This document shows, in pieces, positions 12,084 to 17,902 of a DNA stretch of 37,035 nt. A program made the position numbers and the translations under genes. Source of the DNA: Thermoplasmata archaeon (GTDB lineage: Archaea; Thermoplasmatota; Thermoplasmata; Thermoplasmatales; Thermoplasmataceae); NCBI GenBank assembly GCA_021816745.1, contig JAKAWY010000007.1, forward strand, positions 1 to 37,035. Reading direction: 5' to 3'. Numbering within the stretch: the first letter of the stretch is position 1; the number at the start of each line of letters is the position of its first letter. A model generated the notes under the pieces. The model had not been told where the DNA came from and searched no databases. It was given only the letters and a program-made list of their open reading frames with translations.

Positions 12084-12368
12084 ATGAATATAAGGAGGCT
12101 AATTCTTGATGTTGGAAAAGGCTTAACCAAGCCAACATTGGTTGATTTATCAAAAGCAATCAGTTCAGTGAAAGGTGTTGATGGAGTTAACATCAGTGTC
12201 ACAGAAATAGATATAGAGACCATGGGATTGAATGTCACCATTGAAGGATCTAACATTGACTACGAAGACGTGATAAAGGAAATTGAAAATTCAGGAGCAG
12301 TTGTTCATTCAGTGGACGAGCTTGCCGTTGGATCAAAACTTATCGAGAATATAAGGCGTGAAAATTGA
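12084..12368 (+). CDS. DUF211 family protein
   Basis: This 94-residue protein matches the archaeal DUF211 family: the opening NIRRLILDVGKGLTKPT, then GVDGVNISVTEIDIET, then the ending GAVVHSVDELAVG. Members have a ferredoxin-like, ACT-like fold (established for the family) and often occur with membrane transporters; their role is unproven. Acidic residues cluster in the middle (VTEIDIET) and at YEDVIKEIE. It is the first gene of the plus-strand run. Its stop TGA overlaps the TTG start of the next gene as TTGA, so translation is coupled. A regulatory or metal-sensing subunit role for the neighbouring VIT-like protein is an inference. Confidence 0.88.
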   Translation: MNIRRLILDVGKGLTKPTLVDLSKAISSVKGVDGVNISVTEIDIETMGLNVTIEGSNIDYEDVIKEIENSGAVVHSVDELAVGSKLIENIRREN

Positions 12369-12889
12369 GTAACAGATTTCTGTTTCCTGTTGCCATTGGA
12401 CTCATTGATGGATTAATTACTGCACTAATTATTGCAAGCCACGCTATTTTGAACGATCTTTCCATTTCCGAATTTGCAGCTATACGCATATCCGGGGGCT
12501 CTTCACTTGTGGGAGCTACAAGCTATCTTGTGGCAGAGTATGGAAGGAGGAGGACTGACATGGTCAGAGTGGCAAGGCATCTGAACCCCGGGAATCTTAG
12601 ACCAAGCAAAAACAGATTCGTCAGATTGGGAATACTGTTAGATTCAGTTACAGGAGGTGCTATTGCCCTTGGAATGGGTTTTATAGGTTCTATGATTCCT
12701 TTAATGTCATATTCGGTTTTTAATATGAATCCGTACATTTCACTGGGAATAACTTTTCTTGCACTCGGGATCACTGGAATTTACATGGGAATGGAGGCGG
12801 AAGGTAGTTCAGTAATGTGGGTCACTGCGCTTATCCTGGTAGGGATAACCATGCTTTTCCTTGGTAATTACCTGAGGATATTTCAATGA
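12365..12889 (+). CDS. Short VIT1/CCC1-like membrane protein (putative metal-ion transporter)
   Basis: This 174-residue, five-helix protein has hydrophobic segments at about 5-28, 38-56, 92-115, 123-142 and 148-170. The first helix contains GLIDGLITAL, resembling the GLxDGLVT signature of VIT1/CCC1 iron/manganese transporters. The second ends with GATSYLVAEYGRRR, resembling their Ser/Met-rich EY motif. VIT1 has an extended helical metal-binding domain after helix 2; here that region is reduced to a basic loop of about 35 residues (RRRTDMVRVARHL to FVRLG). The start is a TTG overlapping the DUF211 stop. The end overlaps the next gene (ATGA). Family call is moderate, transported ion unknown. 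Confidence 0.65.
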   Translation: MSNRFLFPVAIGLIDGLITALIIASHAILNDLSISEFAAIRISGGSSLVGATSYLVAEYGRRRTDMVRVARHLNPGNLRPSKNRFVRLGILLDSVTGGAIALGMGFIGSMIPLMSYSVFNMNPYISLGITFLALGITGIYMGMEAEGSSVMWVTALILVGITMLFLGNYLRIFQ

Positions 12890-14313
12890 AAAAAGCAATT
12901 GAAATAACTACATTTTCAGCGGGACTTTTTTATTTATTTTCTATCTTTGCATTGTTTTACCAGGGTGATATACTGTTATCTTTTGGTGCAGATAATACAT
13001 TCTACATCATTGTAGCACTGGTCACAGCACTCCCAATTCTTGATTCGATAATTTCAGGGATTGACAGTCGTCTTAAAAGATATCCATCAGCTGCATTTGT
13101 TGCATTGCTTCTTATTTTTATTGTGATGGATTTTGAATATTTCATTCCATTATTGATGCAGTTAATCTCTCTCTTCCTTGTAATGAGATATATTCTGACT
13201 GGAAATGCAAGGTGGAAATACCATTTTGGATATATTTTATTTATTGTCGCCATTTTCTTTATCTCAAGCCTGGCAAGAATAGTTTTAACAGAAAATATAC
13301 CGCAGATATACGTGTTCAGTTTTACGGATGATGCCAATCTGTTGGGTATACCATTAATTTTTCTGGGAGGGATAACTATTTCCTCTCCCCTCATAATTGT
13401 TTTTTCCATAAGTATCCAGTTTACAGTTATATTGATGGCTATTGGATTCTTCCTCATTGAGAATTACCATGAGATAGCTTCAATCTCAAAAAATAACAGA
13501 AAAGGATCCATAGGAATAATATCGATGTCATTTACATTGCTTTCATGCCAATGCGAAACCATATCTTCCGTGATTCCTGCATTCAGTGCAGAATTATTAG
13601 GCCTGATATCCACACCTTTAATTCTGGAGAGTCTCGTACTGACTTCCGGTACATTTATTTTAATAAGAAGGCAAAAAAAAGGAATTAAACCAGCTTTTTT
13701 TGATAAAATGTGGAACTTAAATCCAGGTTCCAAAATCATGATTCCCACTTTGATACTGTTGTTAATCTTATCTCCGATATTCATTACCCTAGTTTCAATT
13801 CTAGGGTTGCAGTCGAACCTTTTCATTTATATTCTGACTAATTTGGGAGTTTTTTTAATATCATTCCTTCTTTTTTTGATTTTTGAAAAATTGCTTCCGA
13901 TGAAAGCATTAAACATAGGAATAATTGGAAAAATAATTGTTTCCATAATTATTGCCGCATCAATGATTATCTGGTATCTACCCACTGTTGTTTTTGATGT
14001 TACATCTAACGGCCTGGAATATGGCCTGATGGGAGTTGTTTCATTTATTTCAGGATTTTTATTATTCTTAATCACAAGATCCATGGAAAAAAGTGTGAGG
14101 TCCGTCACCTATGAATTTGTAACAGGAATGGTTCCTACTGTATTCGCCATAATATTTTATTTTCTTGCAGTGACAAATACCCCTATCTGGTTGAATTACT
14201 CATTATCCGATGAATTGATTTTTACTCTTTCAGTCCTTGGAGTCACACTTATTCCTATGTGGATTTCAGTAAATTATTCCATATATTCTATGATGTGGCA
14301 TAACAAATCCTAA
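12886..14313 (+). CDS. Polytopic membrane protein with a Cys-x-Cys motif, unknown function
   Basis: The 475-residue protein has about 12-14 hydrophobic helices, a basic loop at 201-207 and another at 261-268. Between them is the striking intramembrane-looking phrase LLSCQCETISSVIPAFSAEL (C221 and C223), which looks like a conserved functional site. Other soluble loops are short. I do not recognise the family. A Cys-x-Cys plus Glu at the mouth of a helix suggests metal (copper, iron) or redox chemistry, but this is inference. Its ATG overlaps the stop of the VIT-like gene (ATGA), so the DUF211, VIT-like and Cys-x-Cys genes form one coupled unit. The next gene starts 26 bases downstream. Confidence 0.75.
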   Translation: MKKAIEITTFSAGLFYLFSIFALFYQGDILLSFGADNTFYIIVALVTALPILDSIISGIDSRLKRYPSAAFVALLLIFIVMDFEYFIPLLMQLISLFLVMRYILTGNARWKYHFGYILFIVAIFFISSLARIVLTENIPQIYVFSFTDDANLLGIPLIFLGGITISSPLIIVFSISIQFTVILMAIGFFLIENYHEIASISKNNRKGSIGIISMSFTLLSCQCETISSVIPAFSAELLGLISTPLILESLVLTSGTFILIRRQKKGIKPAFFDKMWNLNPGSKIMIPTLILLLILSPIFITLVSILGLQSNLFIYILTNLGVFLISFLLFLIFEKLLPMKALNIGIIGKIIVSIIIAASMIIWYLPTVVFDVTSNGLEYGLMGVVSFISGFLLFLITRSMEKSVRSVTYEFVTGMVPTVFAIIFYFLAVTNTPIWLNYSLSDELIFTLSVLGVTLIPMWISVNYSIYSMMWHNKS

Positions 14314-14339: not shown

Positions 14340-15161
14340 ATGAATATTTCTTTTTACAGTGATAAAAACCACTTATTCCCTCTCCTTTCAGATGATGGGA
14401 AAACCGTTATGTTACGTGAGAGTGTTGAAATCAACGCTTTTTATGCGAATTTTGATCATTATATGAAAATGTTCGGCAATGGAGATTCAACAAAGATCGA
14501 ACCGAATGCAGTGCCGATTAACCCTACAAAGATATTATGCCCTGCCGTTAATTTCATATCCCATTCATCAGAAACAAAAACAAAATCACCTGAATCACCA
14601 TATTTTTTTACTAAATTCAATGATTCAATAACGGGGTACAAAGACCCTATACTGCTTAGAAAATCAGTAACTGAACTGGATTACGAAGGGGAAATTGCAG
14701 CCATCATCGGAAAGAAAACAAAAGATGCATCAATAAAAAATGCACTGGAATCAATTGTGGCTTTAGCTGTTGTCAATGATGTCAGTGCCAGGAACTTACA
14801 GGAAAATATCACTCCCGGTTTAGGAAAAAACTGGATTCTCGGGAAGGCCCAGGAATCATTCCTCCCAGTATCTGCATGGGTTCATAAATGGGATGGTTCT
14901 GACGTTGAAATCGTTACCACTGTGAATGGAGAGAAAAGGCAGTACGGAAAAATTTCAGAAATGATATTCTCGTTCCCGGAAATGATATCTTATCTTTCAA
15001 AACATATTACGCTTTCACCTGGAGACATTATACTCAGTGGAACCCCTAAGGGTGTTGCAAAATCCGGAAAATTTCCCTATCTCAAGAACGGTGACAAGGT
15101 TAAGGTATCCTCCAGTAGAATTGGATACATTGAAAACACGGTGAAGTCGGTTGATTACTGA
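14340..15161 (+). CDS. Fumarylacetoacetate hydrolase (FAH) family enzyme
   Basis: The 273-residue protein carries the FAH C-terminal domain. The metal-ligand phrase DYEGEIAAIIGKK is at 114-126 (E116, E118). The third metal ligand is D147 in VVNDVSARNLQ. The end of the active site is LSGTPKGVA near 233. An N-terminal region of about 65 residues precedes the domain. The family hydrolyses or decarboxylates beta-diketo or oxo acids (fumarylacetoacetate, acylpyruvates, oxaloacetate, 2-hydroxyhepta-2,4-diene-1,7-dioate), so the substrate is open. The stop overlaps the 293-codon gene downstream by 11 bases. Why a metabolic enzyme is coupled to a DNA-translocase-like ATPase gene is not clear. Confidence 0.9.
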   Translation: MNISFYSDKNHLFPLLSDDGKTVMLRESVEINAFYANFDHYMKMFGNGDSTKIEPNAVPINPTKILCPAVNFISHSSETKTKSPESPYFFTKFNDSITGYKDPILLRKSVTELDYEGEIAAIIGKKTKDASIKNALESIVALAVVNDVSARNLQENITPGLGKNWILGKAQESFLPVSAWVHKWDGSDVEIVTTVNGEKRQYGKISEMIFSFPEMISYLSKHITLSPGDIILSGTPKGVAKSGKFPYLKNGDKVKVSSSRIGYIENTVKSVDY

Positions 15162-16032
15162 AATTGAAAAAAAATCTATTGAAGGTCTTTCCCTTCCGTT
15201 TGATCCTGTACTATTTGATATCCCAGATTCTAAATTTACGCTGCGTGAAGATCCTAACAGGCACACAACATTATTACAATCGTTTAAGATAGATAACAGT
15301 GAAGTTTCTGTTAAATCATTTTTCATGGACTGGTTTTATTACGGCTTTCCCAAAAATATGATGAAGACTGCATCAGAATATTTCAGCAATGGCAGGGCAA
15401 TCCAGCTGGAATTTTCCGGGAGAGTTTATAATTGCTTCATAGGTGAGGATTATAAAGGCAGGAGTTCAGCCTGTATCTTCTTGAATGGAACCTGCCTGGA
15501 ATTTAGATCTAGTAATTTGAATGAACAACTTTTACAAAACCTATTTTCCAGAGCAGAACAAAAGTTAATTTCCAGAGGAACCAGATTTCATGAAAAATCA
15601 TTCTACGCCACCCATATGGGGACATATTCGTGGTTTGAGGATGAGAGGATAGGACGTCTAAGCTGGAAAGATTCCGCATTGTATTCCATTGGAGAGTTTG
15701 ATTCAGATTCGACAGGAATACTGCCCGGTCTTCATAAAATATCAATATTCAAAAACAAACACAATGAATACCTATGGCTTGACGTGGCGGCAAAGGCCAA
15801 AGGTGTCAGGAACCTTTCATACAGGTTTAATTTCCGTGGCAACCTGTTCACCGAGAATTTAAAGATGAATTCGTGGAGAGTTGCTATTCTATCTCAAAAC
15901 GGGCCCGCCCTCATGGTTAAGGAAACCCCTTTTTTCAGGCATATAATGGCTCTTCCTGCAATTGAACCTGGAGATCTGTGGAAATATGTGGACATTATCG
16001 AAAACTTAAATTTTGACCCATTTATGCCTTAG
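15151..16032 (+). CDS. Unrecognised 293-residue protein coupled to a HerA/TraG-like ATPase
   Basis: I do not recognise this protein. It is soluble, without signal peptide or membrane segment, with mixed alpha/beta composition and many aromatic residues. One stretch (FSGRVYNCFIGEDYKGRSSA) is strand-rich. The start is a TTG at 15151 that overlaps the FAH stop. There is no ATG before the DWFYYGF region about 55 codons in, so an overlapping TTG is the best available choice. The stop TAG at 16030-16032 sits one base before a GTG, the likely start of the ATPase. This tight arrangement suggests a partner or regulatory subunit of that ATPase, but no sequence motif proves it. Confidence 0.7.
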   Translation: MITEIEKKSIEGLSLPFDPVLFDIPDSKFTLREDPNRHTTLLQSFKIDNSEVSVKSFFMDWFYYGFPKNMMKTASEYFSNGRAIQLEFSGRVYNCFIGEDYKGRSSACIFLNGTCLEFRSSNLNEQLLQNLFSRAEQKLISRGTRFHEKSFYATHMGTYSWFEDERIGRLSWKDSALYSIGEFDSDSTGILPGLHKISIFKNKHNEYLWLDVAAKAKGVRNLSYRFNFRGNLFTENLKMNSWRVAILSQNGPALMVKETPFFRHIMALPAIEPGDLWKYVDIIENLNFDPFMP

Positions 16033-16033
16033 G

Positions 16034-17902
16034 GTGCCATATCGATATAAAATCGGGATACCACCGAAGAGGGTGAGTTATCCAGGAATCGAAATTGGCA
16101 CCATGGGTAGCGGAGAAAAAGCTGTTATCCCGGAAAATGAACTGATGTTTCACACCCTTGTGTTAGGCAGAACTGGAACTGGAAAATCCAACCTTCTTAA
16201 AATTTTATTTAATTGCATTTCAAGGGATGATAATAGCAACATAATCCTGGTGGACTTTCACGGTACACTTTCCAGGGAAATAATTTGCATGAACCATGGT
16301 AAAAGATTAGTGTTTATTTCACCGGGCGACCCAAAAAGCAATGAATTTAAAACCAGGTTAAATGTGCTAAAAGGTTCAAACTTATCTCCAGTGATGCTCT
16401 ATAACATCCAAAAAATATTTTCCCAGGAAGATTCCCTATCATCAGGGACATGGGGGCCAAGGCTACAGACCGTAATGACATCTGTTTTGCGTGAAGTGGT
16501 CTTAAAGGATAGTGATTCGACTCTTTCTGATTTTTTATCCACATTGCTTTCCAAGGAAAAAATGAACGAACTAATCACAGGCATCAGGGGAGATACAAAA
16601 GAAGTTCTAAGGGGCCTGGTGAAAAGATGGGAAAACTGGACGGAATATTCAATGAGCACTGTAAATAAACTTCTACCAGTATTGTCAGATCCAGAGATAA
16701 GTCAAATTGTCTCTTCCCGAATAGAATCTTTTGATCTGTACGGATCACTCCTGGAGGGTGGTAAACTGGTGGTTATTGATGTATCCAAAACTGTTCATTC
16801 AGAACAACAGGGAAGAGTAGTAGCCTCAATGCTTCTAAACAGAATTTGGGCAGATATTCTTAAAAATGGTATGCCACACAAGACAATCCTGATGGTTGAT
16901 GAATCCCAAAACCTGAATTCATCTTTACTGTCAGAAATTCTATCAGAGGGTAGGAAATTCAATTTTTTCATAATGCTGGCCTCCCAGTATCTGGGACAGC
17001 ACAATGATGAACTTATAAATGCCATCATGTCCAATTGCGGACATATCTATGCCTTCAACATGTCAGAAGGGGATTCACAAAGAATTTGCAAACTGTTCTC
17101 CGATGACAGAACAAGAAGAAAAGTGATGAACTCCATACTAATGGGACCATATCACGACGTCACCCATATTAACAATCTGAACGAAAATGGAGTTTCAGTG
17201 AGAGGCTTTACCCCTTATCCTGTTCAATTAAATATTGACATGAAAAAATATGACGATTCGGTAAAGGAAAGCCTTAGGAAATATGGGAACGGGCCAGATG
17301 AAATAGTGATCACTCCTGATACTGTTGAAAAAAGCATGCATCGCCAGATGCAGGAAAGATTCAGGGATTATCTTGGGAGGAAATCCATACCTTCTGAATT
17401 AGAGGAAAAAACTGGACTAAACAGAGCAGATCTGGTTTATTATGCTGGATCGACACCCGTTATGGTGGAAGTTGAATTATACGATACCACCAGATTTGAA
17501 AGGAGCATCAAAAAAGCCTGCAATTATAGCAATTCTTTTCTTATATTCCTATGCGCGGAGTATCAGGGAATGAATCTCTATTCAAAATTCAAGGATAGTG
17601 AGTTGTTGATAAAAAATCTGGACAGAATGAAAGCTTTAGGAGATAAAACTTTCATGGATCTGGAAAAAATATCCATAATTGAAGAAAGGAAAAATTCATA
17701 TTTTCTTATTAAGGATGGAAAATACCGCAGGTGGAAACCTGAATATGCACTTACAGAGACATCATTCAAGATTTCACCTGATATACATGGAAGTGAAACA
17801 TTGAATATATTAAGGGAAATGAGAATTTCCAACACACATGTGTACAGGTTTAAGGTGGATTCTGCTTATAAAACGTCCTTTCTGAATGATTTGTTTATTT
17901 AG
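16034..17902 (+). CDS. HerA/TraG-like DNA-translocase ATPase with C-terminal nuclease-like domain
   Basis: This FtsK-HerA superfamily ATPase has 622 residues from the GTG at 16034; a TTG at 16013 would add seven. In TTG-based numbering, Walker A is GRTGTGKS at 52-59, the HerA-type strand LVDFHG is at 79-84, and Walker B is ILMVDESQN at 292-300. The phrase LSEGRKFNFFIMLASQYLGQ (310-329) and the sensor region after it are typical of VirD4/TraG and bacterial T4SS-like DUF87 proteins. Residues about 440-520 look PD-(D/E)xK-like: a helix (MQERFRDYLGRK), D473 in RADLVYY, E486-V-E488 in VMVEVEL, then a hydrophobic strand. No membrane helices are seen. It may unwind or translocate DNA and cleave it. 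NurA is not found next to it. Confidence 0.85.
   Translation: MPYRYKIGIPPKRVSYPGIEIGTMGSGEKAVIPENELMFHTLVLGRTGTGKSNLLKILFNCISRDDNSNIILVDFHGTLSREIICMNHGKRLVFISPGDPKSNEFKTRLNVLKGSNLSPVMLYNIQKIFSQEDSLSSGTWGPRLQTVMTSVLREVVLKDSDSTLSDFLSTLLSKEKMNELITGIRGDTKEVLRGLVKRWENWTEYSMSTVNKLLPVLSDPEISQIVSSRIESFDLYGSLLEGGKLVVIDVSKTVHSEQQGRVVASMLLNRIWADILKNGMPHKTILMVDESQNLNSSLLSEILSEGRKFNFFIMLASQYLGQHNDELINAIMSNCGHIYAFNMSEGDSQRICKLFSDDRTRRKVMNSILMGPYHDVTHINNLNENGVSVRGFTPYPVQLNIDMKKYDDSVKESLRKYGNGPDEIVITPDTVEKSMHRQMQERFRDYLGRKSIPSELEEKTGLNRADLVYYAGSTPVMVEVELYDTTRFERSIKKACNYSNSFLIFLCAEYQGMNLYSKFKDSELLIKNLDRMKALGDKTFMDLEKISIIEERKNSYFLIKDGKYRRWKPEYALTETSFKISPDIHGSETLNILREMRISNTHVYRFKVDSAYKTSFLNDLFI

Follow-up and report, generated by a model that had tools for sequence, protein, structure and literature searches.

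A translationally coupled DUF211-VIT1-like gene pair joined to an apparently relocated candidate respiratory copper factor in a Thermoplasmatales archaeon

Results

Gene organization of the locus

The DNA analysed here, a stretch of 37,035 nucleotides referred to as the window, comes from a draft genome of 1.30 Mb that is 79% complete. Three genes in the window, listed in Table 1, follow one another and encode a DUF211 protein, a short protein of the VIT1/CCC1 fold (hereafter VIT) and a membrane protein that we named CX. An earlier note on this DNA had described them as three overlapping genes, and both the reading frames and the two stop/start overlaps were found exactly as claimed. The overlap between the DUF211 and VIT genes has the general form NTGA, with TTG, GTG or ATG as the start codon, and is kept in all 13 of the DUF211-VIT-CX loci that hold both genes, the window included; the TTG start of the VIT gene is therefore no artefact. 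The overlap between the VIT and CX genes is shared by the window and several relatives, not by all of them, and loci of the E-plasma type show a gap of about 60 bases at this point. The relatives of the locus include Thermoplasmata metagenome-assembled genomes (MAGs), one Cuniculiplasma sp. MAG and the E-plasma genome. For later comparisons, we named the window's family f1, another family of the same order f3, the window's genus g1 and a second genus g3.

Elsewhere in the window (15151-17902), the gene of an orphan protein of 293 aa, for which no family match was found, overlaps that of a HerA/TraD-like ATPase of 629 aa (PF01935, E 8.5e-12).

Table 1. Positions of the genes and motifs of the DUF211-VIT-CX locus within the window
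Feature	Position	Strand	Description
DUF211 gene	12084-12368	+	94 aa; small soluble ferredoxin-fold family; PF02680, E 1.1e-32
TTGA overlap	12365-12368	+	VIT start codon over DUF211 stop
Short VIT1/CCC1-fold gene	12365-12889	+	174 aa; membrane protein, five helices
ATGA overlap	12886-12889	+	VIT stop / CX start
CX gene	12886-14313	+	475 aa; multi-spanning membrane protein, nameless family
CX subfamily	12886-14313	+	Oxidase-side; apparently relocated beside DUF211-VIT
C221-Q222-C223-E224 codons	13546-13557	+	Invariant; middle of predicted helix 208-234

The short VIT1/CCC1-fold protein

The resemblance of the second protein to VIT1/CCC1 transporters, already proposed in the earlier note, is weak when the single sequence is considered, becomes clearer in its relatives and is firm at the level of predicted structure. 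When compared with profiles, the window VIT remained below the cut-off of PF01988 (9.7 bits against 28.1; E 0.93) and reached an E of 0.016 with TIGR00267, while 10 of the 13 aligned VIT relatives matched PF01988, the best with E 1.2e-5. The AlphaFold model, built from 13 sequences (pLDDT 85.6), was superposed by VIA on EgVIT1 (6iu4) over 170 of 174 residues with Z 17.1 and rmsd 4.7, the next unrelated row having Z 7.6. On this model, the five-helix VIT1 fold can be firmly assigned to the window protein.

In the same model, helices 2 and 3 (residues 36-73 and 80-118) are joined directly by a basic linker of about six residues, and the metal-binding domain is therefore absent. The model and its comparison with EgVIT1 thus agree with the earlier proposal that the protein is devoid of cytoplasmic metal-binding helices and carries a short basic loop instead. 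The cytoplasmic metal-binding domain of VIT1 is described in the available portion of PMC10794610.

The fold is shared with EgVIT1 (6iu3, 6iu4), and so is the DG motif of helix 1: D15-G16 is invariant, D15 being found in 30 of 30 sequences, and is aligned to the SDG of EgVIT1. Apart from the linker that stands in place of the metal-binding domain, an apparent difference concerns helix 2, whose transport-path residues in EgVIT1 we take to be E72 (Glu) and M80 (Met). The columns facing them, in an alignment that is weak and non-significant, hold Ser46 and Tyr54 in the window protein and Ser/Ala and Tyr/Phe in the family; given this seeming replacement, transport by the window VIT is uncertain. 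The proteins of NCBIfam TIGR00267, a model of 171 positions covering short archaeal proteins, are likewise short and without a metal-binding domain, although the window VIT scores far under the cut-off of that model.

The first contig scan, performed with the VIT alone, gave no matches. The same genome also encodes a second, long VIT1 of 335 aa (contig G000:C93; L001, 1042-2046), in which an N-terminal ferritin-like extension can be recognized by eye.

The DUF211 protein and its pairing with VIT

The identification of the upstream gene as DUF211, also made in the earlier note, is clear, since PF02680 was matched over model positions 1-88 of 89 with 112.4 bits against a cut-off of 22.1. Across 16 aligned DUF211 proteins, L8, D9, V10, K12, P17, V35, D43, T46, G55, H75, S76, D78 and G83 are invariant. 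In comparison with DUF211/COG1888 proteins of solved structure (2x3d, 2raq and 3bpd), the window protein is a clear member with nothing unusual about it, and what is new in this case is its coupling to a VIT. In the accessible part of PMC9425974, COG1888 is listed as uncharacterised and is linked to ArsR regulators in Thermococcales.

Gene searches were performed in 61 genomes, namely the genome of the window and 60 relatives. The short VIT was found in 34 of them, all belonging to f1, and DUF211 lies directly upstream in 33 (29 of the 30 loci fetched, and four further genomes judged by coordinates); in the remaining genome, G011, the contig breaks off at this point. DUF211 is likewise absent from the three f1 genomes that have no VIT. 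Outside f1, a VIT adjoins DUF211 in one of 25 Thermoplasmatota loci (L106, from another family), 30 loci having been fetched in all.

Additionally, DUF211 was matched in 25 haloarchaeal plasmid records, and 14 of these were inspected. In 13 an annotated VIT1/CCC1 gene stands directly downstream of DUF211, in several cases overlapping it or separated from it by a few bases; in the fourteenth (Haladaptatus; L176, 1655-2362), DUF211 is followed just by broken VIT-like frames. The linkage of DUF211 and a short VIT that the earlier note had drawn from one locus is thus upheld in both groups, and the two genes constitute a conserved, translationally coupled and old archaeal pair.

A calcium/cation P-type ATPase or a sodium:calcium antiporter is encoded beside or near DUF211-VIT in eight of the 14 inspected plasmid records (L169, L171, L173, L176, L177, L178, L180 and L181). 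These neighbours hint at a role of the pair with Ca2+ or Mn2+, and together with the haloarchaeal recurrence they lead us to regard DUF211-VIT as an archaeal two-gene unit in a cation-transport setting. No description of the pair was found in the open-licence literature searched. For DUF211, an archaeal family that has three solved structures but no function assigned in that literature, the pair offers a testable partner.

The CX family and its conserved CQCE motif

For 38 members of the CX family, no match to Pfam or NCBIfam was obtained beyond isolated chance hits, and searching the PDB sequences with the family profile at E 10 retrieved nothing. The CX model has intermediate confidence (pLDDT 78). 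Its best Foldseek match had an E of 0.48, and its best VIA match, to a part of a transhydrogenase, had Z 9.5 over 115 residues, which is chance-like for a helical protein; assignment to a known fold was therefore rejected, and likenesses to heme A synthase (Z 6.0) and ferroportin (Z about 6) were dismissed as chance-like too. It is important to mention that a missing structural match does not make CX a new fold.

The 38 members were aligned (identity to the window CX down to 18%), leaving out fragments, the near-duplicate loci L070, L082, L089, L091, L092 and L095, and the duplicates among L035-L043. Nine positions are invariant in all 38: C221, Q222, C223, E224, N193, P231, W363, M382 and G390. 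No conserved His column was observed. The motif CQCE occupies positions 14-17 of a predicted helix of 27 residues, and E192-N193 occupies positions 16-17 of the preceding one. The earlier note had singled out residues 221-224 as an unusual intramembrane C-Q-C-E site and had asked whether the CxC is kept among homologues; the predicted mid-helix position agrees with the former, and the motif is kept not only in the 38 aligned proteins but also in all eight distant CX proteins from f3 genomes, which lie outside the alignment, are encoded beside the oxidase and have no cysteines other than these two. This degree of CxC conservation far exceeds what chance would give. Judged by its sequences, CX is a genuine family that is large in this order.

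A search of plasmids with CX gave no match, and no description of the family was found in the open-licence literature searched. CX is not described in the available portions of PMC3750248 and PMC12808453; a figure in the accessible part of PMC12524180 shows a hypothetical-protein box in the sulfocyanin cluster of Acidiplasma, which may or may not be CX.

Genomic neighbourhoods of CX and co-occurrence with COX1

The surroundings of CX were examined at 40 loci, over up to 15 kb each; five of these are DUF211-VIT loci. Among the other 35, at least one gene for COX1, COX2, CtaB, a cupredoxin, sulfocyanin, Rieske protein or SoxC-type cytochrome b is present in 29, and such a gene is the direct neighbour of CX in 24; the six loci without any of them are L064, L066, L068, L070, L077 and L086. 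Two main gene orders can be observed. The first is small protein - COX2 - COX1 - cupredoxin - CtaB - CX - Rce1-like, and the second is sulfocyanin - Rieske - SoxC cytochrome b - CX. CbsB and OdsN of Sulfolobus, from the soxLN neighbourhood, are conceivable relatives of CX. At one locus (L076), CX is adjoined by a YHS-domain P-type ATPase and an archaeal TRASH-domain regulator; YHS and TRASH domains both occur in copper handling.

Using the family profile, CX was detected in 46 of the 61 genomes, comprising all 37 of f1 and all nine of f3, and in none of the 15 genomes of families f2, f4, f5 and f6. COX1 was detected in 43 genomes, every one of which has CX; three genomes have CX without COX1 and 15 have neither (Fisher p 1e-11 for co-occurrence in the 61 genomes, uncorrected for kinship). 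Linkage points the same way: of the COX1 genomes, 30 fall outside g1 and g3, and in 27 of these CX and COX1 are no more than 15 kb apart, as against none of the 13 inside the two genera. For this count the first piece was used where COX1 is split (G005 and G015), and the weak short COX1 of G009 and G038 was omitted. Among relatives, then, CX is associated with a heme-copper oxidase both by position and by co-occurrence.

The association has its limits. Across a broader set of 194 Thermoplasmatota genomes, 83 have COX1 and 19, all of f1, have CX; 68 of the COX1 genomes are without CX. CX therefore goes with one oxidase lineage and not with oxidases generally. Moreover, four near-complete genomes of one genus (G016, G034, G151 and G206) have CX and no COX1; in two of them, G016 and G034, CX is found with sulfocyanin, Rieske protein, SoxC-type cytochrome b and a NapH-like ferredoxin membrane protein (L084 and L089).

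Cox11 is absent from all 61 genomes searched. The SCO1 profile gave weak matches in 24 of the 61 (best 24.8 bits), mostly to frames of 152-194 aa and in one case of 92 aa; we read these as probable peroxiredoxin-like cross-matches and rejected the idea that SCO1 handles copper in these genomes.

Apparent relocation of CX to the DUF211-VIT pair

CX adjoins DUF211-VIT just in g1 and g3, that is, in 13 genomes; the other 21 f1 genomes with the pair carry CX elsewhere, mostly with respiratory genes. The earlier note had interpreted all three genes as one metal-handling module and had looked to their neighbourhood in related genomes to decide the matter. Of that interpretation the DUF211-VIT pair stands, while CX proves not to be a general third member, and an ancient three-gene module was rejected. 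The locus is two things joined.

In the six oxidase operons of g1 and g3 that were read (L147-L151 and L156), the Rce1-like gene comes immediately after CtaB, and the CX that separates the two elsewhere is missing. G019 and G022 likewise have an oxidase operon without CX, and their CX is elsewhere in the genome. In the CX tree, the DUF211-linked proteins form one clade (support 100/100) apart from the clade linked to SOX genes (100/99) and fall on the oxidase-linked side, where their exact sister is weakly supported (81/37). The simplest reading is that the CX copy of the oxidase operon moved into the DUF211-VIT operon.

An additional oxidase-side CX was observed in G004 on a contig of 5.7 kb (L066; G004:C209), nearly identical to that of L064 in G022, which belongs to another genus. 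Since the contig is short, this copy is probably a contamination of the bin or a recent transfer.

Comparison with known copper and oxidase factors

The available part of PMC9145763 describes Cox11_CtaG as a factor for CuB insertion whose copper motif is a CxC. CX too has a CxC and keeps company with heme-copper oxidase genes; however, Cox11 is small and single-spanning with an outside domain, whereas CX is polytopic, unrelated in sequence (none of the 38 members matched PF04442 at E 0.1) and predicted to hold its CxC inside the membrane. Polytopic copper-related factors of bacterial oxidases are represented by Caa3_CtaG and CcoA (accessible parts of PMC9145763 and PMC5829832). CX is likewise polytopic and encoded with an oxidase, but its 38 members have no Pfam match except for one isolated chance hit.

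A further parallel is offered by the CxC of CX, which is predicted to lie within one membrane helix, the Asn and Met lying in other helices. P1B-type copper ATPases carry the intramembrane residues CPC, NY and MSS in a comparable arrangement. CX has no ATPase domain and no homology to these enzymes, and the likeness is an analogy only.

Discussion

The account that we prefer, and put forward tentatively as quite possible, is that two units share one transcript: a VIT1-fold carrier gated by DUF211, and a relocated CX that has a metal site within the membrane and assists the biogenesis of respiratory copper sites. The first unit would be a divalent-cation/proton exchanger that lost its own cytoplasmic metal-binding domain and is made from one coupled message with the soluble DUF211, which most likely docks on the cytoplasmic face of the VIT and gates or feeds the carrier. 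In CX, C221, C223, E224 and N193, probably with E192 and M382, may form a putative intramembrane site for Cu(I) or a different soft metal; copper as the substrate is something we infer from the neighbouring genes. By moving or handing over Cu(I), CX would help to build the copper centres in the heme-copper oxidase of Thermoplasmatales type and in its cupredoxin, and the sister subfamily may serve the complex of sulfocyanin, Rieske protein and cytochrome b. In an ancestor of the window's lineage, the oxidase CX copy would have left the interval between CtaB and the Rce1-like gene and come under DUF211-VIT. As a guess, the joining may have been favoured in a metal-rich acid habitat, where the proteins for exporting metal and for supplying copper to respiration would be made together.

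The main rival to a biogenesis factor is CX as a true subunit, that is, a permanent structural or electron-transfer component of the oxidase and of the SoxC-type complex, which might for instance replace subunits III and IV. Its place inside respiratory gene sets would suit such a role, and Cuniculiplasma oxidases are without subunits III and IV according to the available portion of PMC5155288. However, CX is kept in genomes whose COX1 frame reaches 829-841 aa, a length like that of a COX1-COX3 fusion, accompanies two different complexes, offers no conserved His for heme and, in the 13 genomes where it adjoins DUF211-VIT, is encoded away from the oxidase. We thus consider a subunit role rather unlikely.

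It is also unlikely, and somewhat more so, that the metal of DUF211-VIT is also the one that CX transports or senses and that all three proteins form one system. The stop/start overlap, present in the window and in several of its relatives, and the gene order kept in 13 genomes speak for this, and a change of partner after the relocation is conceivable; the location of CX elsewhere in the 21 other f1 genomes with the pair, and its descent from the oxidase-linked side of the tree, speak against it. A thiol-redox function of CX, acting during assembly on the cysteines of CuA or cupredoxin sites, appears improbable: cupredoxins are among its neighbours and the distant members have no cysteines outside the CxC, but CQCE is predicted in the middle of a membrane helix and not at a surface, and the invariant Glu after it, with invariant Asn and Met in other helices, looks more like an ion site. 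Transport or insertion of heme is very improbable, since no His is conserved among the 38 CX proteins and the SOX-type copies do not lie beside CtaB, the heme O synthase, even though CtaB is the direct neighbour in ten oxidase-type loci.

A bolder form of the preferred copper-biogenesis account is doubtful. According to this, CX would constitute a new, non-ATPase class of Cu(I) delivery through CQCE that replaces Sco and Cox11, and in one lineage it would be co-produced with a DUF211-gated cation exporter. If true, CX would carry Cu(I) to the oxidase, cupredoxin and sulfocyanin of Thermoplasmatales, and copper for respiration would be provided together with divalent-metal export in that lineage. 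DUF211 and VIT1 are known families; the novelty lies in their conserved pairing and in the CX family, possibly as a new class. In two Thermoplasmatales families, every COX1 genome examined has CX, in most cases next to the oxidase genes, and the protein is a concrete candidate for copper insertion in archaea that have no familiar Sco and Cox11.

Finally, a NapH/MauN-like polyferredoxin membrane protein of 640-740 aa is encoded directly beside CX at L086 (3640-5823), with relatives at L084, L087, L094 and L095. This protein might reduce a metal or quinone in the pathway to which CX belongs.
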